A DNA stretch of 12,701 nt from Deltaproteobacteria bacterium RBG_13_61_14. Its GTDB lineage: Bacteria; RBG-13-61-14. Shown piece by piece: positions 3,279 to 12,701 of the stretch. The stretch lies in the NCBI GenBank assembly GCA_001797815.1, contig MGQK01000076.1, positions 58,703 to 71,403 of the forward strand, in the 5' to 3' direction. The notes under the pieces are model-generated. The model worked only from the letters and a program-made list of their open reading frames with translations, had not been told where the DNA came from and ran no database searches. Numbering within the stretch: the stretch's first letter is position 1; every line of letters starts with the position of its first letter. A program made the translations under genes and the position numbers.

Positions 3279-4190
3279 TTATTCAGACTGTTCCCGGATG
3301 ATCATGGCCATTTCGAAGAAGAGGTCTTGTTCGCGGATGACGCCGACGGTTTTGCCGTTATCTTGGACCAGGAGCCGGCGGACTTTAAGCTCGAGCATGC
3401 GATGGGCGGCCTCGAGCAAGGTGGCCTCGGCGTCAATCGTGATCGGGGCCGGGCTCATGACCTCCCGGACCAGCTTTTTTCCCAGGTCGCGGGAGAGCAG
3501 GGTAAAGGCGCCGGACGTGGGAAAGGCCGGGCCGTTGGCCGGCGCGGGGCCGGCGGGGGCTGAGAGAGCCGGCGCTTGCAGGCCTTGCAAGAGGTCGGTG
3601 AAGCTGACCAGGCCGATCACCTTGTGGCGGGGGTCGAGCACCAGGATGGAGCGATGCATGGATGCCTGGACCGTGCTGGTGGAGGGGGTGCGGTTGAAGG
3701 AGATCATGATCACCTCGATGGCCTCGGCCAGGGTCCGGTCTTCGCGGACGGAGCTGAAGGAAGTGAGCGGGACCATGACGTCCTTGACCCGGTGCTCTTG
3801 CCGGGAGAGCTGGCGCCGGCGGGCGAAGGCATCGCGCACCCGGCGGGCGAGCAGGTCAAGGTTGCAGGGCTTGGTCAGGTAATCGAACAGCCCCTCTTGC
3901 AGGCCGGCGAGCGCGATGTCGGGGCTGCCCCGGCCGGTGAGCATGATCACCGGGAGTTCGGGCTTTAGTCGTTTGAGCTCGCGCAGCACTTCGTTACCGT
4001 CCATCTCCGGCATCTTCAGGTCCAGGATCACCACGTCAATCGTGTCTTTGCGGATTTTTTCCAGCGCCTCCCGGCCGTTCGCCGCCGCGGTGACGGAAAA
4101 GCCGCGGCGATTGAGGATGGTGGAGGTGGCGGCGCGAAACTGCTCCTCGTCATCCACCAGGAGAACCCGAATCCCCTGATCGTTTTCCAC
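3279..4190 (-). CDS. Response regulator: receiver plus two CBS domains
   Basis: A cytoplasmic signalling protein with an N-terminal receiver (about residues 7-122) and a tandem CBS pair (about 136-205 and 240-296). All receiver residues are present: acidic pair Asp13/Asp14 in LLVDDEEQF, phosphoacceptor Asp57 in VVILDLKMPEMDG, Thr85 in MLTGRG and Lys107 in YLTKPC. CBS repeats open with VKDVMVPLTSFSSVRED and VREVMSPAPITIDAEATL and close with VIGLVSFTDLL and TVGVIREQDL. An Ala/Pro-rich linker (206-228) separates them. CBS pairs generally bind AMP, ATP or related nucleotides, so the output may be tuned by energy charge; there is no DNA-binding or enzymatic domain. The start is GTG at 4190 with AGGAG about seven bases upstream; the next in-frame ATG would delete the receiver. 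It is the last gene of the five-gene run that begins with the Cache kinase. Confidence 0.93.
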   Translation of the reverse strand: MENDQGIRVLLVDDEEQFRAATSTILNRRGFSVTAAANGREALEKIRKDTIDVVILDLKMPEMDGNEVLRELKRLKPELPVIMLTGRGSPDIALAGLQEGLFDYLTKPCNLDLLARRVRDAFARRRQLSRQEHRVKDVMVPLTSFSSVREDRTLAEAIEVIMISFNRTPSTSTVQASMHRSILVLDPRHKVIGLVSFTDLLQGLQAPALSAPAGPAPANGPAFPTSGAFTLLSRDLGKKLVREVMSPAPITIDAEATLLEAAHRMLELKVRRLLVQDNGKTVGVIREQDLFFEMAMIIREQSE

Positions 4191-4217
4191 TTTTTTCTCC
4201 TCTGCTTCTCGTTCGGC

Positions 4218-4238
4218 GCCGCTCCTCCAGGAGGCGGC
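4218..4238. other. Strong hairpin ahead of the REC-CBS ribosome site
   Basis: GCCGC-TCCT (4218-4226), a CC loop, and AGGA-g-GCGGC (4229-4238) pair with a single bulge. On the mRNA (minus) sense it lies about 15 bases before the ribosome site of the REC-CBS gene. There is no T-run on either side, so it is not an intrinsic terminator. It may be an mRNA processing or stability element within the operon. The rest of the 4191-4349 gap is GC-rich with no gene. Confidence 0.4.
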
Positions 4239-4349
4239 CGGAGATGTGGTTTCACGGTCCGCTCCCTGGCGCCGGTTTGCCGGGCCGGGTGTCAGCCGGC
4301 GGATAACGATCCCAGGCTCGCCGGCGGTCCCGGCGTGAGGGCTCCGCGG

Positions 4350-4841
4350 CTACTGGCCGGCGGCTTCGAGTTCCCGCAGGCGGCGGAGGATGCCGAGGGG
4401 GGAAGACACCCCGGCCATTTTCAAGATCTCGTCCATCCGCTCCTGCTGGATCTTGAGCTTGTTCATCACCCGCTTCTTATAGGCTTCGCTCAGGACCTCC
4501 AACAGGCGCTCCAGCTCGCAGGGCTTTTGCAAATAGGAATAAGCCCCGCTCTTGGTGCACTCCACCGCGGAGTCAATCGAGCCGTGGCCGGTCAGGATCA
4601 CCACTTCCATCCATTGATGCTCTTGCTTCAAGGCCGCCAAGGTGGTCTCGCCGTCCATGCCCGGCATTTTCAGATCCACAATGGCGATATCAATCGGACA
4701 GCGGCGAGCGGCCTCCAGGGCCTTTTCCCCCCGGGTAACCGCGACCACATTGAAGTCCCTCACCTCCAGGCGCTTGCTGATGGATTCGAGGAACTGCTCC
4801 TCATCGTCCACGATTAACAAGTTGATTTTGCTCCGCTCCAT
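4350..4841 (-). CDS. Response regulator, stand-alone receiver with helical tail
   Basis: A 163-residue single-domain receiver. The phosphorylation site is complete: Asp12/Asp13 in LIVDDEEQF, Asp56 in IAIVDLKMPGMDG, Thr84 in VILTGHGS and Lys106 in YLQKPCE. The receiver ends near residue 122. The last 40 residues are charged and probably helical (KRVMNKLKIQQERMDEILKM, then LGILRRLRELEAAG), with no recognisable output domain. That suggests signalling by protein contact or by passing a phosphate on. The receiver is close in wording to the REC-CBS receiver next door (shared VDDEEQF, DLKMP, KPC), as if they arose by duplication. The start is ATG 4841, fixed by AAGGAGG seven bases upstream; the longer open frame to 4913 has no ribosome site. 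It lies 88 bp after the four-cysteine gene and 159 bp before the REC-CBS gene. Confidence 0.93.
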   Translation of the reverse strand: MERSKINLLIVDDEEQFLESISKRLEVRDFNVVAVTRGEKALEAARRCPIDIAIVDLKMPGMDGETTLAALKQEHQWMEVVILTGHGSIDSAVECTKSGAYSYLQKPCELERLLEVLSEAYKKRVMNKLKIQQERMDEILKMAGVSSPLGILRRLRELEAAGQ

Positions 4842-4867
4842 GATCTCCTCCTTATGTTCGCTTGCTC

Positions 4868-4940
4868 CCCCATGGGGCCCGGGGGAATATTCTGTCCCAG
4901 GACAGGCTGCCATCCCTGGAGATCGGTCTCAGAGACGATC
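4868..4940. other. Three consecutive hairpins in the operon
   Basis: Between the four-cysteine gene and the receiver gene are CCCC-AT-GGGG (4868-4877), CTGTCC-CA-GGACAG (4892-4905) and GATCgGTCTC-A-GAGAC-GATC (4921-4940). The third contains the stop codon of the four-cysteine gene (4931-4929). None is followed by a T-run, so they look more like RNA processing or stability structures than terminators. Confidence 0.4.
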
Positions 4941-5165
4941 TCCGCTGAGGTGCGACCAGGCCGGACCGTGCTTGAGCGAGGAGATGCTTCCGTAATCGTT
5001 GAGCGAGATCTTCCGGCCCAGGAGTTGGCGGGCCTGGTAAACCGGGCAGGCTGGGTAGTTCCCGCCCGCGCAAAAGGCTTCCAGTTCGCCGCTGCTCAAC
5101 ACCACCAAGCCCTCCACTGCCGCGCAGAGCTTGGCACTCCTGCCGGATAGCCGCGGACACATCAT
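4929..5165 (-). CDS. Small four-cysteine protein, function unknown
   Basis: A 78-residue protein with no recognised name. It has four cysteines at positions 3, 14, 32 and 40, spaced C-x10-C-x17-C-x7-C, the first and last in the setting Cys-Pro (MMCPRL and ACPVY). This arrangement could hold a metal ion or an iron-sulfur cluster, or act as a redox switch; that is inference. The centre reads AVEGLVVLSSGELEAFC. The C-terminal 35 residues (from ARQLLGRK) have no cysteines and look less ordered. There is no signal peptide or membrane segment, so it should be cytoplasmic. The gene looks real: a double ATG start at 5165 sits behind AAAGGAGGAGAAG, one of the best ribosome sites in the window, and it lies in the same orientation within a tight operon of receivers. 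From memory, similar CPR...C...C...CPVY mini-proteins sit near receivers in Desulfobacterota, which I cannot verify here. Confidence 0.75.
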   Translation of the reverse strand: MMCPRLSGRSAKLCAAVEGLVVLSSGELEAFCAGGNYPACPVYQARQLLGRKISLNDYGSISSLKHGPAWSHLSGDRL

Positions 5166-5230
5166 CTTCTCCTCCTTTCCCTTCGGTCCGGGCGCCGATG
5201 GGCGTCCCGTCCGAAGATGGCACTTTCCCT

Positions 5231-5250
5231 CCCTTCGACAAGCTCAGGGC
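5231..5250. repeat. CCCTGAGCTTGTCGAAGGG-type intergenic repeat
   Basis: The minus strand reads GCCCTGAGCTTGTCGAAGGG, an imperfect palindrome that I recall as a widely dispersed short repeat in many bacterial genomes. It sits in the 108-bp gap between the degenerate receiver gene and the four-cysteine gene. The element begins a stretch where TCAGGG recurs at 5244, 5259 and 5274, exactly 15 bases apart. Confidence 0.55.
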
Positions 5251-5273
5251 TCGCCCAGTCAGGGCAGGCACGA

Positions 5274-5780
5274 TCAGGGAACCCCCTTCCGCTCGGCTGA
5301 GCTCGCCGCAAGCCCGACACTCCGAGTCAGGCCGGACCACACCTGGGCCAGCCATCGGGCGACTCCCTTTGGTTTGGGCCGGGACCGCGCGTTCCGAGCC
5401 GCCTCCAATTTGGCGATCAACTCGTCCAGGCCGCAGGGTTTGTAACAATAGTCCACGATCTGGGGTTGGCGGCGGAGATGCTCGGACAGGCGGCTTCCGT
5501 TCCGGAGCAGCAAGATCACGGGGGTCAAAGACCCGAGCTGCTTGATCTCCCGGAGGGTATTGCTCCCATTCGCCTCGAAGGCGTCCTGGTCCAGGATCAC
5601 CACTTCCGGCGGATCGCTCCGCGCCCGTTCGAGCGCCGCCTGGCTGGTGTCCACCCCCACCACCTGGTAGCCGCGCATGGCCAACTGCCGCACCAGGGCC
5701 TCGCGGAACGCCGGGTCCTGATGGACCAGCAGCACCCTCGGCTTCGGCTCAGGCGGGCGGACGGGGACGTTCTCCGACAT
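5274..5780 (-). CDS. Receiver-domain protein with degenerate active site
   Basis: A 168-residue receiver-fold protein. The phosphoacceptor Asp64 (VVILDQD) and Lys114 (YCYKPCG) are kept. The acidic pair that binds magnesium is replaced: where relatives have V-D-D-E/D, this has LLVHQDPAF (His20, Gln21, Asp22). The conserved Thr/Ser of strand 4 is Leu92 (VILLLRNGS instead of VIMLTGRGS). Normal phosphotransfer is therefore doubtful, and it may work as a phosphorylation-independent binding module. The first 14 residues are Pro-rich and the last 35 (from RSRPKPKG) are basic with no known domain. The start is ATG 5780, behind GAGGAGG about nine bases upstream. The gene begins inside the 3' end of the Cache kinase gene (32-bp overlap), which points to translational coupling and a shared job. 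An upstream in-frame ATG at 5798 is less likely. Confidence 0.88.
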   Translation of the reverse strand: MSENVPVRPPEPKPRVLLVHQDPAFREALVRQLAMRGYQVVGVDTSQAALERARSDPPEVVILDQDAFEANGSNTLREIKQLGSLTPVILLLRNGSRLSEHLRRQPQIVDYCYKPCGLDELIAKLEAARNARSRPKPKGVARWLAQVWSGLTRSVGLAASSAERKGVP

Positions 5781-7536
5781 TTTCGGTTTCCTCCTCAACG
5801 GGCTGGACCGGGAGCACCACGGTGAAGGAACTGCCGGCCCCCGGCATGCTCTGCACCTCGATCCGGCCGCCCATGCTCTCGACGATGCTCAAGCTGATGC
5901 TGAGCCCCAGCCCGGTGCCCTTTCCCGCCTCCTTGGTGGTGTAGAAAGGCAGGAAGATCTTTCCCATCTGCTCCGCGGTCATGCCCTTGCCGGTGTCGGC
6001 GATGGTGACCCGGATGAATTGGTCGTCCCGGTGAGTCGAAAGAGAAATGGTCCCCGAACCCTCGATGGCATCGCCGGCGTTGTTAATGATGTTCAGGAAG
6101 ACTTGCCGGATTTGATCGGGGTCCAGCCGGAGCCGGGGCAGGTCGGGCGCGTAATCCCGGAGCAGTTGGATGTTCGCCACCAGGAATTCCCGCTCCAAGA
6201 GCCCGCTCACCACCTCGTCCAAGAGGTGGTTGAGGTCAACCGTCGCCAGCCGGTGCTCGGTATGGCGCACGAGCTCTAAAAGCTTCTGGGTAATGCCCTT
6301 GGCCCGCACCACCGCCTGGTCAATGTGGTCCAGTTCCTGGCGGACCTGGTCCGGGTTCCATTCAATTTCGAATTGAGGATCGAACATGTCCCGGATCACC
6401 CCGTTGGTGGCGGAAATGATGGCCAGAGGGTTGTTGATCTCGTGGGCCACGCCCGCGGCCAGCTCGCCCACCGAGACCAGCTTGGCCGCGTGCAAGAGCT
6501 GCGAGCGCAGCTCCTTGCGGGACTCCTCCACCGCCTGGGCCCGGCGCAGGAGCCGGTCGGTGGTGATCCAGATGGCGCTGAGCACGACCAGGGCCAGCGC
6601 CACGGTGCTGACGATCATGATCTGGCGCGCCCGATACATCTCGGCATAGGCCACCCGCAGGGGCTGCCGCACCACCAGCACCCAGGGAACTTCTTCCAGC
6701 CAGGAATAGGCGATCAACTCGGTGTCGCCTTGGACTTTGATCTCGTTGGCGCCCGAACCGGCGGGCTCTGCCGGCAGGTAGTCGCTCGGGCCCAACAGTT
6801 CTCCGTGCTCCGGGTCCACGATCTGGTAGTAGCCCCGCCGGTTGATGAGGGCGGATTCGCCGCCCTTGCCCTGGCCGATGGTGCGGAGGAACATGTAGAA
6901 TTTGTCCGGGTCCAGGGTGGCGCGCATGACGAACGGCGCGCCGTCGAACAACTGCCGGACGGCGATGGTGAAATGGGGTTTTTTCCGGAAGCCCAGGTAG
7001 ATGTCGCTGATCAGGTAGTTCTGGTCCTGGTCCATCAAGGTGCGGAACCATTTTTCCCGGCTGTAGTCTTTGCCCTGGAGATAGGGATAAGGGCCGGCGT
7101 AGCCGATCTGGAGGCCCTCGCGGGTGAGGAAGCCGACGTCCACGAAGGCGTCGCTCATCTCCCGCAGATGTTGCAGGTGGCGCCTCATGTCATCCGGCGC
7201 GGGGGCCAGCTTGAAATCGCGCCCCCGAAACAGGTTGAAAATGTTGAGCACCCGCTCCTGGAGAAAAAGGTCAATCGTGTTGCGCTGGCTCTCGGCCAGG
7301 ATGACCAGGTGCAGTTTGCCGCTTTTCTTAATGGTCTGGTTGAACTGGAAATGAAAGTAAAGCGACAGGATCGCGAGCGGCACCAGGTAGGCAATGGCCA
7401 GGCCCACCCGCAAAAGCCTCCGCAGCCGGCGGTAATATTCTTCGGTCTTGAGATGGGACGCCGGCGCGAGCTTTTTCGGCTCTGGAGGCCGATCTCCGCT
7501 CCTGGCTTCTTCTCCTCCCGGTTTGGCAACAGCCAT
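5749..7536 (-). CDS. Sensor histidine kinase with Cache-like periplasmic domain
   Basis: A 595-residue inner-membrane kinase. After a charged 35-residue cytoplasmic start comes membrane helix 1 (about 43-63). A periplasmic sensor of about 230 residues follows, with dCache features such as VDVGFLTREGLQIGYAGPYP, GKDYSREKWF and FTIAVRQL. Membrane helix 2 spans about 304-324, then a short coiled coil with no clear HAMP domain. HisKA carries His365 in VAHEINNPLAI; the ATPase domain has NIINNAGDAI (Asn485/486), DTGKGM (514-519), FLPFYTTK and GTGLGLSIS (540-548). Cache domains bind small molecules such as carboxylates or amino acids; the ligand here is unknown. ATG 7536 is chosen although its ribosome site is weak, because the frame upstream to 7701 crosses the sigma-54 promoter and has non-coding-like composition. 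It heads the five-gene run and overlaps the next gene by 32 bp. Confidence 0.93.
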   Translation of the reverse strand: MAVAKPGGEEARSGDRPPEPKKLAPASHLKTEEYYRRLRRLLRVGLAIAYLVPLAILSLYFHFQFNQTIKKSGKLHLVILAESQRNTIDLFLQERVLNIFNLFRGRDFKLAPAPDDMRRHLQHLREMSDAFVDVGFLTREGLQIGYAGPYPYLQGKDYSREKWFRTLMDQDQNYLISDIYLGFRKKPHFTIAVRQLFDGAPFVMRATLDPDKFYMFLRTIGQGKGGESALINRRGYYQIVDPEHGELLGPSDYLPAEPAGSGANEIKVQGDTELIAYSWLEEVPWVLVVRQPLRVAYAEMYRARQIMIVSTVALALVVLSAIWITTDRLLRRAQAVEESRKELRSQLLHAAKLVSVGELAAGVAHEINNPLAIISATNGVIRDMFDPQFEIEWNPDQVRQELDHIDQAVVRAKGITQKLLELVRHTEHRLATVDLNHLLDEVVSGLLEREFLVANIQLLRDYAPDLPRLRLDPDQIRQVFLNIINNAGDAIEGSGTISLSTHRDDQFIRVTIADTGKGMTAEQMGKIFLPFYTTKEAGKGTGLGLSISLSIVESMGGRIEVQSMPGAGSSFTVVLPVQPVEEETENVGERPRPPA

Positions 7537-7658
7537 TTTCCGCTTTCTTCCGTGGACGCTGGTTGGGGGTAGTGCCACCCTCGTCTCCAATCTGCCCAGT
7601 CTCAGCGTCCTCCCAGTTAGTTCTAATCTCTTTTTAATTCTCCTGCTAATTATTATGA

Positions 7659-7672
7659 GCAATAGCCGTGCC
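7659..7672 (-). promoter_or_regulatory. Sigma-54 (RpoN) -24/-12 promoter
   Basis: The minus strand reads GGCACG-GCTA-TTGC followed by T, against the consensus TGGCACG-N4-TTGCW. The invariant GG (7672-7671) and GC (7660-7659) are exactly ten bases apart; only the T before GG is changed, to G. Transcription would begin near 7648 and leave about a 112-nt leader before the Cache kinase ATG at 7536. The promoter lies 162 bp downstream of the stop codon of an NtrC-type activator gene. In the rest of the 7537-7833 gap I see one imperfect AT-rich palindrome (7704-7725) that could be an activator site, and no gene. Confidence 0.75.
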
Positions 7673-7703
7673 CAAACCGAAAAGGCCGGACCAATATGCA
7701 AAA

Positions 7704-7725: not shown

Positions 7726-7833
7726 GTAAAAAATGGATTGGGAGAGGCTTTAGGGGCGGTCTGGGAAATGGCGATAGTTCTTTACAGGCTGAAAAAAAAT
7801 CAGACGATGAATCAGGAGTATTCCCTTGGCAGG

Positions 7834-9264
7834 TTAGTCTTCTTCCTCGATCCCCGCACCGGACAATCCGCCTTTTTCCATTTTGGCGTGCAAGGTGGGC
7901 CGGGAGATTCCCAGGAGCTTGGCGGCCCGGGTCCGGTTGCCGTGTGTAAAGTCCAGGGTTTCGCTAATCAGGATACTGCTGAACCGGTCCATGAGCGAGG
8001 CAAACAAATCCGGCTGGCCGCCGGCGGCCAAGGTCTCCCGCGCCCATTGGCGCAAGACCTTGTCCACGGTTTCGGTGTTGACCAGAGTAGGACCGGCCGC
8101 CCCTTGCACTGCCTGGGAAATATCCTCGGGCCGGACCGGGTAGCCCCGGCTGAAAATCAGGGATTTCTGCAAGGTATTGGCCAGCTCCCGCACATTTCCG
8201 GGCCAGGGGTTGCCGGCGATCATGGTCTTGGCTTCTTCGGTCATCCCGGGGTTATCCAGGGCCATTTCTTTGGCAAAGCGGGCCAGGAAATAATCGCACA
8301 ACAAGGAGGAATCGCCTTTGCGTTCGCGCAAGGGCGGCAGTCCAATGGTCACCACCTTCAGCCGGTAATAGAGGTCCTCCCGGAACCGTCCCTCGGCCAG
8401 GGCCGACTCCAGGTCCCGGTTGGTGGCCGCGAGGATGCGCACGTCCGCGGGGATGGATTCCCGTCCGCCCAGCCGCTCCAGGCTCTTTTCCTGGAGCAGC
8501 CGCAGGATCTTGGCCTGGATGCTCAAGGGCATGTCCCCGATCTCGTCCAGGAACACGGTCCCGCCATGGGCCTGTTCGATCTTTCCGATCCGGCGGTTGA
8601 CCGCGCCGGTGAAGGCGCCTTTTTCGTAGCCGAAAAGCTCGCTCTCCAGGAGCGTCTCGGGGATGGCCACGCAGTTGATGACCAGGAAGGGCTTGTCCGA
8701 GCGCAGACTGTGCTGATAAACCGCCCGGGCCACCAGCTCCTTACCGGTCCCGCTCTCGCCCCGGATCAACACCGTGGCATCGGTGGGGGCCACCCGGCCG
8801 ATCGCCTTATACACCTCCTGCATGGCCTCGCTACGGCCGATGATGGCGTCGGCCGGCGCGGTTTCCGGGACCACGTTCAACTCCACCCGCGCCCGCATGA
8901 ACCGCCCCGCTTCCAGGGCCTGTTCGATCACGGTCAGGATATCCGGGATATCAAAGGGCTTGAGCACGTAGTCAAAAGCGCCCAGCTTGGTGGCTTCGAT
9001 CGCGGTGTCGGTGGTGCCAAAGGCGGTCATCACGATCACCGGGAGCTTGGGGTCCTTCTCCCGGATCGCCCGCAGGGTTTCCAGCCCGCTCATCCCCGGC
9101 ATGCGCACGTCCATGATCACCAGGTCCGGCATCCGCTGCTGGACCGCTTCCAGCCCGGCCTCGCCACTGGCCGCGGTCTCCACCTCATAGCCTTCCTCGG
9201 TCAACAGCTTCTCAAAACTCGTGCGCAAGCGCGCGTCGTCGTCCACAATCAAGATCCGGCTCAT
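7834..9264 (-). CDS. NtrC-family sigma-54-dependent response regulator
   Basis: A 476-residue transcription activator with the full three-domain layout. The receiver (1-120) has Asp8/Asp9/Asp10, phosphoacceptor Asp52 (LVIMDVRMPGMSG), Thr80 and Lys102 (VLKPFD). The AAA+ domain (about 140-370) carries Walker A GESGTGKE (169-176), the sigma-54 contact loop GAFTGA (216-221), Walker B GTVFLDEIGD (235-244) and RFREDLYYRL and WPGNVREL later on. The Fis-type helix-turn-helix lies at about 443-466 (NRTRAAKLLGISRPTLHAKM). GAFTGA is intact, so it should open sigma-54 promoters when phosphorylated. ATG 9264 overlaps the kinase stop codon as ATGA and has GGAGG about seven bases upstream. The kinase just upstream is its likely partner. 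The nearest likely target is the -24/-12 site 162 bp beyond its stop codon. Target genes and signal are inferred; family assignment is firm. Confidence 0.97.
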   Translation of the reverse strand: MSRILIVDDDARLRTSFEKLLTEEGYEVETAASGEAGLEAVQQRMPDLVIMDVRMPGMSGLETLRAIREKDPKLPVIVMTAFGTTDTAIEATKLGAFDYVLKPFDIPDILTVIEQALEAGRFMRARVELNVVPETAPADAIIGRSEAMQEVYKAIGRVAPTDATVLIRGESGTGKELVARAVYQHSLRSDKPFLVINCVAIPETLLESELFGYEKGAFTGAVNRRIGKIEQAHGGTVFLDEIGDMPLSIQAKILRLLQEKSLERLGGRESIPADVRILAATNRDLESALAEGRFREDLYYRLKVVTIGLPPLRERKGDSSLLCDYFLARFAKEMALDNPGMTEEAKTMIAGNPWPGNVRELANTLQKSLIFSRGYPVRPEDISQAVQGAAGPTLVNTETVDKVLRQWARETLAAGGQPDLFASLMDRFSSILISETLDFTHGNRTRAAKLLGISRPTLHAKMEKGGLSGAGIEEED

Positions 9265-10742
9265 CCGCTTTCCTCCGGAACCGGGAGCGTAATGATGAAC
9301 GTGGCTCCTTCCCCTTCCCGTGAGCGCAAATCCAGCCTCCCCCCGTGCTCTTCCACCACCCGCTGGGCAATGGCCAGGCCCAGCCCGGTTCCGTCGGGCT
9401 TGGTGCTGAAAAACGGCTCAAACACTTTATCCAGGAGCGCCTCGGGAATCCCGGGCCCGGTGTCCTGGATGGCGATTACCACCGCCCGGCCGATCCGCTC
9501 GGCCACCGCTTCGGTCTCGGTCACCTGAAGCCGGCCGCCCTGGCCCATGGCGTCGCAGGCGTTTACCAGCAGGTTCACCAGCACCTCCTTCAACAGTTCC
9601 GGGTCGGCCAGCACGTTCGGCAAATAATGCCGATTCCGCTCCACTTGCAACCCCAAGAGTTCAAACCGGCTTTGCAGCAATTGCATGGCCGCATCCACCA
9701 CCTCGGAGACATTGATCGGCTGCATTTTCAACTTGGGCGGCCGGGAAAATTCCAGAAAATTGCGGACGATGTTGTCCAGGTGGCGCATCTCCTCGGCCAC
9801 CACCTTGAAATCCTCCCGCTGGGTGGGCGAGAGCTCCAGGGTGCGCTCGAGCGAAAACAGGCGCATCTTGATCGAGGTCATGGGGTTGCGGATGGTGTGG
9901 GCCACTTCCGCGGCCAGCTTGCCGACCAAAGCCATCTTCTCCGACTGCAGCAGCCGCTCCCGGCTCCGCCGAAGCTCGGTATGGGTGTCCTCCACGTCAT
10001 AGATCAGGCCCCGAACCCGCTTTTTCAGCGCGGCTACCTCGTTTCCCGACACCGAAGAAGCCCCGGCGCCGGCCCGGTCGGCCTCCACGGCCAGGTTCCG
10101 GATCGGACGCAGGATCTCGGTCACCAGCATGAAAGCCAGGAAAGCGCCGAGGATGACCGCGCCGGTCATGGCGGTCCCGGCAATCACCCGGAGCCGCTGG
10201 GCTTGCTGATGGCTCTCCTTCCAAGTCCGGTTGATCATCTGATATTGGAGATCTTTATAACGATCACAGAGTTCGAGAATCCGGGAAAATTGGGCGCGGA
10301 CTTCCTGGTGCAATAAACTCCCGGCTTCCCGGTCTCCGGCCTGGTAAAGGGCGATCACCCGGTCCTTTTCACGGGTGTATTGTTCATAGTCCGACTCGAT
10401 CTGGCCCAGAACGTTTTGCTCGGGCTCCGAAGGCGAAGATTCCCGGGCCTTAAGAAGCTCCCGCTTGAACGCCTGGCGGCTCTCTTCCAATTGCTTGAGC
10501 CAAGTTGGGTCGCCGTCCAGAAAATAATAAGAGACAAAGCCCTTCTGGCGCATCAGGGCGGTCTCCAACTCCGCCGCGGTCCGGAGCCGGCTCACATTTG
10601 TCTCCAAGACCGAGGCGAACAGACCCTCGATCCGGTAGGTCCACCAGATCATCACCGCGCCGCCGCCGAGCGTAATCATCACCAGACCGGCCAGGGGCAG
10701 CAAAATCCGGGCGCGCAGACTCGGACGCGTCCACCTCTTCAT
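9261..10742 (-). CDS. Sensor histidine kinase, partner of the NtrC-type regulator
   Basis: A 493-residue inner-membrane kinase. Membrane helix 1 lies at about 11-34, followed by a 150-residue, largely helical periplasmic segment resembling four-helix-bundle (4HB_MCP or CHASE3-like) sensors. Membrane helix 2 (about 185-208) is followed by a HAMP-like stretch (EILRPIRNLAVEADR) and a coiled coil. The HisKA motif is VAHTIRNPMTSIKMRL with His282; the residue after the histidine is Thr283 where most kinases have Glu. The ATPase domain has LLVNACDAM (Asn394), DTGPGIP (427-433), FEPFFSTK and GTGLGLAIA (451-459). ATG 10742 has GAGGAG about a dozen bases upstream. Its stop overlaps the start of the NtrC-type gene by four bases, so the two are almost certainly made together. 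A sigma-70-like promoter is visible about 60 bp upstream. The signal it senses is unknown. Confidence 0.94.
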   Translation of the reverse strand: MKRWTRPSLRARILLPLAGLVMITLGGGAVMIWWTYRIEGLFASVLETNVSRLRTAAELETALMRQKGFVSYYFLDGDPTWLKQLEESRQAFKRELLKARESSPSEPEQNVLGQIESDYEQYTREKDRVIALYQAGDREAGSLLHQEVRAQFSRILELCDRYKDLQYQMINRTWKESHQQAQRLRVIAGTAMTGAVILGAFLAFMLVTEILRPIRNLAVEADRAGAGASSVSGNEVAALKKRVRGLIYDVEDTHTELRRSRERLLQSEKMALVGKLAAEVAHTIRNPMTSIKMRLFSLERTLELSPTQREDFKVVAEEMRHLDNIVRNFLEFSRPPKLKMQPINVSEVVDAAMQLLQSRFELLGLQVERNRHYLPNVLADPELLKEVLVNLLVNACDAMGQGGRLQVTETEAVAERIGRAVVIAIQDTGPGIPEALLDKVFEPFFSTKPDGTGLGLAIAQRVVEEHGGRLDLRSREGEGATFIITLPVPEESG

Positions 10743-10802
10743 TCTGGATCCAACTCCTCAAGGAAACTTTAACAATTCAGCCCGGAGATACCGACGCCTT
10801 AC

Positions 10803-10831
10803 AGTATAGAAGATTTGACCGCCGGCGGCAA
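10803..10831 (-). promoter_or_regulatory. Sigma-70 promoter for the kinase/NtrC pair
   Basis: On the minus strand TTGCCG (10831-10826), a 17-nt spacer and TATACT (10808-10803) make a good promoter. Transcription would start near 10796, leaving about a 54-nt leader before ATG 10742. The spacer and -35 box contain the perfect 10-bp palindrome CCGCCGGCGG (10819-10828), and TTGACC (10815-10820) faces GGTCAA (10839-10844). Both symmetries are placed where a repressor or autoregulator could bind. Confidence 0.55.
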
Positions 10832-10876
10832 ATTTTTAGGTCAAGACGGACTCCCCCAACGCTTGCGACCGTAAAA

Positions 10877-10933
10877 AAAGCTGACATCTCATCACCCCCG
10901 GGTGCGGCAATTTTTATTAAAAAAGTCAGCTTT
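10877..10933. other. Long-range inverted repeat in the divergent gap
   Basis: AAAGCTGAC (10877-10885) and GTCAGCTTT (10925-10933) are exact complements 39 bases apart. The loop holds a smaller hairpin, CACC-CCCG-GGTG (around 10894-10905). On the minus strand the stem is followed by a run of T (down to 10873), so it could end leftward transcripts, or serve as an operator pair for the divergent operons. I see no known riboswitch fold. Confidence 0.35.
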
Positions 10934-11110
10934 ATACGTAATTCCAAAGAGTTAAATGATTTACCGATTGAGGCATGATTATTGCTCCAAAAATAGAGGA
11001 GCATGGGTATTGGTTGCGGGAGGGAGTGCTTTATCCTGAAGAATCAGAAGTTGATTTGAGAGAGGAAGGGCAGAAGAGCTCTTCCTTGAGGCCAAGAAAT
11101 AAGGAGGGTC

Positions 11111-11626
11111 ATGATGGAACAGGAATGTGTCTCCGCCCAGCGGGCACCGGCGGAGGAGTTTACCGCCGAGCAGTGGGCGGCGGTGGATGCCATCGTCGCC
11201 AAGTATCGGGGCAAGCCGGGTGCCTTGATCCCGGTGTTGGAGGAAGTCCAGGGCGTGACCGGCTTTCTACCCGAGGTGGTCCAGCGCCGGGTGGCCACCG
11301 GCCTTTCTATCCCCTTGGGCCAGGTGTATGGGGTGGTCACCTTCTACTCCTTTTTCACCATGAAGCCTCGGGGCAAGCACCAGGTCCGGGTGTGCCTGGG
11401 CACCGCTTGTCATGTGCGGGGTGCCCACCGGAACCTCGACCACCTGGTGGCGCAACTGGGGATCGAGCTGGGCGAATGCACGGAAGACCGCCAGTTCAGC
11501 CTGGAGCTGGTCCGTTGCCTGGGGTGCTGCGCGCTGGCGCCGGTCTTGACGGTCGGCGAGGACATCCACAAGCAGGTGAAGACCGCCAAGCTGGACCAGA
11601 TGATCCAGGAATATCGGCAAAAATAG
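11111..11626 (+). CDS. NuoE/HndA/HydC-like [2Fe-2S] electron-transfer subunit
   Basis: A 171-residue thioredoxin-like ferredoxin, the 24-kDa-type subunit of complex I, NAD(P)-linked [FeFe] hydrogenases and formate dehydrogenases. The family body is clear: LIPVLEEVQGVTGFLPEVV, then YGVVTFYSFFTMKPRGKH. The [2Fe-2S] ligands are Cys95 and Cys100 (VCLGTACHVRG, C-x4-C) and Cys136 and Cys140 (RCLGCCALAP, C-x3-C). An additional Cys139 stands beside the last ligand, where relatives usually have Ala. The length fits the family. AAGGAGG at 11101-11107 precedes two in-frame ATGs (11111 and 11114); the second has the better spacing. The NuoF-like gene follows 82 bp later, and together they form the NAD(P)H-oxidising module. 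Which enzyme they serve (HydABC, Hnd, formate dehydrogenase or other) depends on genes past the window, so no symbol is given. No clear sigma-70 or sigma-54 promoter was found ahead of it. Confidence 0.95.
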   Translation: MMEQECVSAQRAPAEEFTAEQWAAVDAIVAKYRGKPGALIPVLEEVQGVTGFLPEVVQRRVATGLSIPLGQVYGVVTFYSFFTMKPRGKHQVRVCLGTACHVRGAHRNLDHLVAQLGIELGECTEDRQFSLELVRCLGCCALAPVLTVGEDIHKQVKTAKLDQMIQEYRQK

Positions 11627-11640
11627 GGCCGGGCCGGGAC

Positions 11641-11669
11641 TTAACATGGGGTCAGGCCCCAAATGTTAA
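11641..11669. repeat. TTAACAT-GGGG hairpin repeat between the redox genes
   Basis: TTAACAT-GGGG (11641-11651), loop TCAGG, CCCC-aa-ATGTTAA (11657-11669) pair along eleven positions with an AA bulge. The core GGGGTCAGGCCCC resembles a widely seen intergenic repeat (from memory) and shares GGGGTCAG with 3216-3223. There is no T-run, so it should not terminate the operon; it could trim the ratio of the two subunits. Confidence 0.5.
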
Positions 11670-11708
11670 CATCCTGGGTGGGATCCAGAAAGATGAAGGA
11701 GTAAGAAC

Positions 11709-12701
11709 ATGGCCGAGAAAAAAAAGAAACTGATGTTAAATGACTTGAAGGCCATCAAGGATCGAGTCGCATCGGAAAACGCGAAATACCGTCTCCGCCT
11801 TTTAGTTTGCGGAGACACGGGTTGCCACGCCTCGGGCAGCCAGGCGGTCTGGGCCGCGCTTTTCGAGGAAGTCCAGAAACGCGGCCTTGGAAAGGAAGTG
11901 CAACTGGTCAAGGCCGGTTGCAACGGCTTCTGCTCGGTCGGGCCGCTGATGACCATCTATCCCGGCGGGATCTTTTACCAGAAGCTCACCGCCGGCGACA
12001 TGCCCGAGCTGGTGGAAAGCCATTTCCAGAAAGGCAAGCCGGTCGAGCGCTTGATGTATAAGGATTCCGTAACCGCAAAAGTCCTTCCGACCGTGGACAA
12101 AATCCCTTACTTCACCTTGCAACACTTCCGGGTGCTCCGCAACATGGGGCAGATTGACCCGGAGAGCATCGAAGAATACATCTGGAAAGACGGCTACCTG
12201 GGCGTGGCCAAGGCGCTCCTGGAAATGACTCCCACCCAGATCATCGCCGAGATAAAGACCTCCGGGCTCCGCGGCCGCGGCGGCGCCGGGTTCCCCACCG
12301 GCATGAAATGGGAATTCGCCGCGGCTTCCAAGGGCGAGGTCAAATACGTGCTCTGCAATGCCGACGAGGGCGACCCCGGCGCGTTCATGGACCGCTCGGT
12401 GATGGAGGCCACTCCCCACGCGGTGCTGGAAGGCATGATCGCGGCGGCCAAGGCGATCAACTCCCACCAGGGCTACATCTACTGCCGGGCCGAGTATCCG
12501 CTGGCGATCAAGCGCCTGAACATTGCCATCACGCAGGCGCGCGATTCCGGTCTCCTGGGCCGGGACATCCTGGGCTCGGGGGTCGACTTCGACGTCGAGA
12601 TTTACCAGGGCGCCGGCGCTTTTGTCTGCGGCGAAGAGACCGCACTCATGGCATCCATCGAGGGCCGGCGGGGTATGCCCCGGCCGCGGCCGCCCTTCCC
12701 G
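11709..12701 (+). CDS. NuoF/HndC/HydB-like NADH:FMN subunit, 3' end cut by window
   Basis: The flavin- and NAD(P)H-binding diaphorase subunit of a bifurcating or NADP-linked hydrogenase or related dehydrogenase. The 331 residues present start with a lysine-rich tail. A thioredoxin-like [2Fe-2S] domain follows, with Cys34 and Cys39 (VCGDTGCHASG) and Cys71 and Cys75 (GCNGFCSVGP). The NuoF body then has LRGRGGAGFPTGMKW (187-201, NADH site), CNADEGDPGAFMDRS (216-230, FMN site) and GAGAFVCGEETALMASIEG (301-319). The frame is open at base 12701; the SLBB fold and the C-terminal iron-sulfur region, and any ferredoxin extension, are missing. The N-terminal [2Fe-2S] domain separates it from plain complex I NuoF and points to the HydB/HndC type. 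ATG 11709 has AAGGAG seven bases upstream. It is co-oriented with the NuoE-like gene and probably cotranscribed. Family certain; parent enzyme unknown. Confidence 0.95.
   Translation, partial: MAEKKKKLMLNDLKAIKDRVASENAKYRLRLLVCGDTGCHASGSQAVWAALFEEVQKRGLGKEVQLVKAGCNGFCSVGPLMTIYPGGIFYQKLTAGDMPELVESHFQKGKPVERLMYKDSVTAKVLPTVDKIPYFTLQHFRVLRNMGQIDPESIEEYIWKDGYLGVAKALLEMTPTQIIAEIKTSGLRGRGGAGFPTGMKWEFAAASKGEVKYVLCNADEGDPGAFMDRSVMEATPHAVLEGMIAAAKAINSHQGYIYCRAEYPLAIKRLNIAITQARDSGLLGRDILGSGVDFDVEIYQGAGAFVCGEETALMASIEGRRGMPRPRPPFP

Follow-up and report, generated by a model that had tools for sequence, protein, structure and literature searches.

The DctB/DctD system of C4-dicarboxylate uptake combines a Cache-type kinase with two membrane helices and a sigma-54 activator beside transporter genes, and DctB phosphorylates DctD. 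Here, a five-gene signalling cassette was analysed in a stretch of 12,701 nucleotides (the window) from Deltaproteobacteria bacterium RBG_13_61_14 (genome G000; contig MGQK01000076.1, positions 58,703 to 71,403). It encodes, in order, a histidine kinase (HK1), a degenerate receiver, a four-cysteine protein, a lone receiver and a receiver-CBS-CBS protein (REC-CBS-CBS). The cassette was read, with a probability of about 0.6, as a reduced form of a conserved two-component module, under sigma-54 control, for divalent-anion uptake, most likely of sulfate, whose transporter was lost and whose remaining parts would act in trans or have been repurposed. HK1 shares the Cache-type sensor and the two membrane helices with DctB, and a sigma-54 activator is likewise present. 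Unlike in DctB/DctD, this activator has a kinase of its own (HK2), and HK1 is grouped with receivers without DNA-binding parts.

A gene cluster of the Desulfobacteraceae (PMC11887813, Fig. 5) brings together DASS sulfate transporters, cache kinases, response regulators and CBS-domain proteins. In that paper, sulfate was inferred as the common signal, with two proposed levels of control, namely external sulfate through the kinase and energy state through the CBS domains. Loci of similar layout from Desulfobacula (L005, L006) and Desulfamplus (L007) have kinases with the sensor motif of HK1; in the comparison made with Desulfobacula L005, both this motif and REC-CBS-CBS were shared with the window. 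The window possesses the cache kinase with the shared sensor and the CBS protein, and lacks the DASS transporter. Furthermore, the regulators of that paper were proposed to act on promoters, whereas the receivers of the window have no DNA-binding domain, and the relatives studied here fuse a receiver to the transporter, a fusion that a term search of its main text did not bring up.

In NmpRSTU of Myxococcus xanthus (PMC11841059), an NtrC-type regulator, a receiver-only protein and linked CBS-domain proteins are combined as in the present locus, but that system has an oxygen-sensing cytoplasmic kinase and a hybrid kinase, no transporter, and a CBS protein for which no receiver is described. The SLC5/STAC kinases CbrA and CrbS (PMC9100948, PMC5715377) also join a two-component protein to a solute symporter, and CrbS/R controls acetyl-CoA synthetase. 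Their transporter sits on the kinase, at the input side, whereas in the relatives of the window a different transporter family sits on a receiver, at the output side.

An earlier note, made from the letters of the window, had proposed the five genes as one signalling cassette. Its gene order, directions and domain calls agreed with the open reading frames and Pfam. The last four proteins had no DNA-binding or catalytic output domain in Pfam or NCBIfam, and the NtrC-type activator with its own kinase lies directly upstream of HK1, both as the note had described.

The Module and Its Receiver–Transporter Fusions in Relatives

The gene order HK2–NtrC–HK1–X–lone receiver was found in G026 (L055, L113) and G192 (L083), which belong to another phylum. 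In both, X is one frame of about 700 residues, in which a receiver is fused to a DASS/SLC13 (sodium:sulfate symporter) domain. Such fusions, with lengths of 687-852 residues and each with Response_reg and Na_sulph_symp in Pfam, occurred in five genomes of three phyla. In G209 and G189 (two further phyla), the fusion has an HK1 homologue on one side and a lone receiver on the other, and G173 also carries one. A receiver–transporter fusion was not described in the literature searched, with the principal survey of response-regulator output domains lying outside that search.

Orthologues in the same position were found for HK2 (61% in G192, L083; 57% in G026, L113) and for the NtrC-type activator (79% and 76%, respectively). 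The HK1 orthologues upstream of the fusion reached 67% in G026, 70% in G192, 41% in G209 and 40% in G189. The catalytic boxes of HK1 (HEINNP, DTG and GTGLGL) were all intact; the marks of a two-component system, HisKA and HATPase boxes together with a phospho-acceptor Asp in the receivers, were thus present. The lone receiver showed identities of 75% to G026, about 80% (over the receiver) to G192, and 54-57% to G189 and G209. In a tree of 44 receivers, it fell within the clade of receivers located 3′ of the fusions (support 100/97), and its receiver site, like that of REC-CBS-CBS, was canonical.

The sensor motif D[IV]-x-LG-[FY]-R-x2-PHF-x-[IVL]-AV was shared by HK1 and all the kinases adjoining a DASS gene (10/10). 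It was absent from four module kinases not directly adjoining such a gene; about 2 kb from one of them (L055:2680-4446), there is a weak DASS-like frame. The kinases compared share ancestry, and hence these counts are not independent.

Past the lone receiver, the G026 locus continues with a second kinase, another lone receiver and a plain DASS transporter before REC-CBS-CBS is reached. This second kinase–receiver–transporter block is gone from the window, where REC-CBS-CBS alone remains of it. In Desulfobacula L005, the order is kinase–receiver–DASS–(small, Yip1)–REC-CBS-CBS–CstA. Order and orthology agree with the receiver–DASS module and the transporter half is absent, so that the window holds a derived, transporter-less form.

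The Degenerate Receiver

The degenerate receiver occupies the gene position of fusion X in G026 and G192. In the receiver tree it was placed within the fusion clade (support 99/98 and 95/99), on a branch of 2.1 changes per site compared with 0-0.13 in close relatives; this long-branch placement deserves caution, but the gene position agrees with it. The alignment with the fusions covers the receiver and the linker, reaches the start of the first membrane helix and ends there. No fragments of a DASS transporter were found elsewhere in the window, and no receiver–DASS fusion was found in its genome at E 1e-40. A simple assembly frameshift as the cause of the short receiver was rejected because no downstream homology was present in any frame; a deletion remains. 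Judged from position and alignment, the degenerate receiver is a receiver–transporter fusion minus its transporter and no independent invention. Compared with the relatives, the acidic pair of the active site (VDDE to VHQD) and the switch Thr (MLTG to LLRN) were lost, while the active-site Asp and Lys were retained. The protein is probably no longer switched by phosphorylation and, if it acts at all, would do so as a binding partner.

The lost transporter, the long branch and the damaged active site might also be explained by decay, with a cassette that became jobless after the transporter loss and is on its way out, its fast-evolving receiver going first. This explanation seems unlikely. All five frames are open, the kinase boxes, the promoter and the dyad are intact, and the lone receiver has been conserved at 75-80%. 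Moreover, the degenerate receiver shares its codon pattern with the genes around it (third-position GC 0.87; 0.52 bits per codon vs −0.77 shuffled). This is the pattern of a working gene, and the degenerate receiver therefore looks retained and not dead.

Sigma-54 Promoter and Enhancer Dyad

The −24/−12 element GGGCACG-GCTA-TTGCT at 7673-7658 had one mismatch to the consensus, and when the region upstream was shuffled 2000 times, two shuffles scored as well. The element was found at the matching place in G192 (L083) and G026 (L055). The NtrC–HK1 intergenic stretch of the window could be aligned with that of G192, including this element and a candidate dyad, which reads TTTCAGCCTGTAAAG in the window and TTACAGGTTGTAAAG in G192. 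The proposal of the earlier note that the cassette is sigma-54-driven was supported by both elements.

The window dyad agreed with TTACA-N2/3-TGTAA at 12 of 13 positions, and none of 500 region shuffles was as good. In the approximately 289 kb of DNA scanned, six perfect dyads were found compared with 0.08 expected from Markov simulations. All six were in relatives, upstream of a module kinase or a REC-CBS-CBS gene, namely HK1 (G192, G026), another module kinase (G026) and REC-CBS-CBS (G192, G173, G026). A GGCA-N8-TTGC-like element followed about 110-160 bp 3′ of each perfect dyad and of the one-mismatch copy in the window. A dyad followed by a −24/−12 element at such spacing matches the arrangement typical of an enhancer with its sigma-54 promoter. 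The −24/−12 element, the enhancer-binding activator and the upstream sites of a sigma-54-dependent operon were thus all found, by sequence only. They support control of the HK1 operon by sigma-54 through the adjacent NtrC-type activator, and we infer that NtrC binds the dyad. Since the dyad and the sigma-54 element precede both the kinases and REC-CBS-CBS in the relatives, REC-CBS-CBS would belong to the same candidate regulon there, even at other loci. Together, these sites define a candidate regulon that ties uptake signalling to CBS-domain proteins, acetate activation and hydrogenase genes.

An alternative TTG start of HK1 at 7701 (650 residues) sits upstream of the −24/−12 element, and the ATG at 7536 is therefore the most likely start. 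The five genes are close together on the minus strand, and the start of the degenerate receiver overlaps the end of HK1. Downstream of the degenerate receiver, the intergenic gaps are 108, 87 and 159 bp. No terminator-like site was found between the five genes, and with these gaps one transcript is plausible.

REC-CBS-CBS and Its Gene Neighbours

In a search of 192 genomes spread widely across bacteria, full-length REC-CBS-CBS matches with identities up to 57-59% were found in two genomes of another phylum besides the window genome, and a third genome of that phylum also has a full-length copy. Full-length homologues (41-57%) adjoin DASS transporters or acetyl-CoA synthetase genes. Other copies are the first genes of operons for acetyl-CoA synthetase, a major-facilitator transporter, acetate-CoA ligase and a CoA transferase. 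The same dyad and −24/−12 element precede kinases and REC-CBS-CBS genes in the relatives, and therefore REC-CBS-CBS is a genuine partner in the gene set. A CBS pair was predicted in the protein (structure model pLDDT, predicted local distance difference test, 78.7), with a GhhSxxD-type motif (GLVSFTD) in the first CBS and GVIREQD in the second. In PDB searches with the sequence and the model, the matches listed included only receiver-containing proteins, which was uninformative on the CBS pair.

The neighbourhood could also mean that control by the cassette has moved from anion uptake to hydrogen or organic-acid metabolism, with the divergent NuoE/NuoF ([FeFe]-hydrogenase type) genes as targets. 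These genes begin 370 bp from HK2, nuoE is preceded by a −24/−12-like site in the window, L084 and L057, and, in G026 and G192, REC-CBS-CBS lies divergently to these same hydrogenase genes and is the first gene of acetyl-CoA synthetase operons. However, receivers and CBS domains do not bind DNA, the sensor motif of HK1 tracks linkage to the transporter, and the region upstream of nuoE in the window has no good dyad. This possibility was accordingly considered improbable.

Three observations weigh against a reduced anion-uptake module. Several REC-CBS-CBS genes adjoin acetyl-CoA synthetase, acetate-CoA ligase or [FeFe]-hydrogenase genes and not a transporter. G001 and G002, of the same phylum as the window genome, have no full-length REC-CBS-CBS, and hence no second copy of the reduced form is available within the phylum. 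In addition, the fusion-bearing G026, G173 and G192 have no dsrA over the cut-off, so that sulfate is not secured as the substrate; dsrA was found in the window genome, G189 and G209. Sulfate is the leading candidate for the module substrate. The window genome has two plain DASS genes, both outside the window. The module transporters have neither of the two SNT motifs, which mark DASS proteins of carboxylate type, and both motifs occur in the carboxylate-type DASS protein of contig C8 in the window genome. Another cluster of that genome, on contig C132 (L087:538-8730), comprises a dCache-PAS kinase without the sensor motif, a receiver, a CBS-CBS protein and a DASS transporter.

The Four-Cysteine Protein

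The four-cysteine protein had no Pfam or NCBIfam match. Its cysteines, spaced C-x10-C-x17-C-x7-C in the window, were invariant in eight aligned sequences of the family. Homologues stand alone at a second place in the same genome, in G001 and in G002, with remoter ones in nine other genomes, and none was found within the relatives' cassettes. The protein is therefore, on present comparisons, a local addition incidental to the cassette, contrary to the earlier note, which had counted it as a member. The co-occurrence of five families, which that note had suggested searching for, was seen for the kinase, the lone receiver and REC-CBS-CBS and not for this protein. Metal or redox chemistry was not claimed because the structure model was too poor (pLDDT 48.8). 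A distinct five-component phosphorelay, its output set by nucleotide binding and by cysteine chemistry of the small protein, is very improbable, since, although the five genes are intact and close together on one strand and the cysteines are invariant, the small protein is outside the module in every relative and occurs alone at unrelated places, and the degenerate receiver is apparently a derived fragment.

The family is small, stand-alone and widespread at low density (window 4929-5165, L021:8600-8803, L100, L102, L106 and L107). In L100, an NtrC-like regulator gene adjoins the gene of the four-cysteine protein.

Proposed Mechanism

In the reduced anion-uptake module, HK2 would phosphorylate NtrC, which would bind the dyad and activate the HK1 promoter. 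HK1 would then sense an external divalent anion and phosphorylate the lone receiver and REC-CBS-CBS, whose CBS pair may contribute adenine-nucleotide (energy) status. In the relatives, HK1 would also phosphorylate the receiver attached to the transporter, and uptake would be set through protein contact. In the window, the transporter half and the neighbouring block are gone, and therefore the soluble parts would have to act in trans. The lone receiver and REC-CBS-CBS might do so, for example, on the DASS transporter of contig C132, which has an adjoining CBS-CBS protein and a cache kinase and receiver nearby. It is tentatively suggested, with more doubt than belief, that the kinase of the relatives switches transport directly through the receiver fused to the DASS transporter, with the lone receiver and REC-CBS-CBS as soluble gates, and that in the window this fusion was split and the receiver became a phosphorylation-blind partner. 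The two-layer circuit of the earlier note was retained in its transcriptional switch (sigma-54/NtrC); the pure protein-contact relay was not, as the missing output is the transporter present in the relatives.

The sequences show the order and orthology of the genes, the truncation and the architecture of the promoter; phosphotransfer, the ligand and the control of transport belong to the proposal. Transcription is the usual target of two-component systems. A receiver–transporter fusion beside a kinase in several phyla would let the kinase act directly on uptake, and it makes protein-level switching of sulfate-type uptake testable. The window may serve as a natural experiment, its transporter having been removed while the signalling was kept.

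Locus Layout and Neighbouring Genes

The features of the locus are listed in Table 1. No RNA family was matched in Rfam.

Table 1. Coordinates of the signalling locus in the window and of the fusions in relatives.
Feature	Position	Strand	Basis or remark
HK2: four-helix/CHASE3-like sensor, HisKA, HATPase; kinase of the NtrC-type activator	9261..10742	-	Pfam
NtrC-type sigma-54 activator: receiver, AAA+, Fis-type helix-turn-helix	7834..9264	-	Pfam
Candidate enhancer dyad TTTCAGCCTGTAAAG	7780..7794	-	12/13 positions of TTACA-N2/3-TGTAA
Putative sigma-54 −24/−12 promoter GGGCACGGCTATTGCT	7658..7673	-	Same place in L083 and L055
HK1: dCache histidine kinase, DctB-like layout, sensor motif DIYLGFRKKPHFTIAV	5749..7536	-	Pfam; L055 and L083 orthologues 67-70%
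Degenerate stand-alone receiver: apparent truncated remnant of a receiver–DASS fusion	5274..5780	-	Pfam, tree, alignment
Four-cysteine protein, 78 residues	4929..5165	-	Outside the conserved cassette; apparent local addition
Lone receiver	4350..4841	-	In relatives 3′ of the receiver–transporter gene
REC-CBS-CBS	3279..4190	-	Pfam: Response_reg E 9e-33, CBS E 3e-18
Receiver–DASS fusions in relatives	L055:12995-15109; L083:8701-10776; L080:7850-9913; L081:620-3178; L054:5478-7604		Adjoin a kinase or kinase cluster

A minus-strand repeat, CCTGAGCTTGTCGAAGG, at 5232-5248 has three exact copies in the genome and forms the loop of a long hairpin in L111; so small a copy number gives no ground for attributing the deletion to it.

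The NuoE/NuoF genes adjoin the signalling module in three genomes (window 10742-12701, L057:8803-15604 and L084:6544-13816). In L057 and L084, [FeFe] hydrogenase comes next after them, and REC-CBS-CBS lies divergently to them. In the G026 cluster, a cytidylate-kinase-like domain is fused to a receiver (L055:4433-5665, 410 residues). Furthermore, a kinase–receiver pair of the same family lies upstream of a TauE/SafE-type anion transporter gene at L083:4231-8186.

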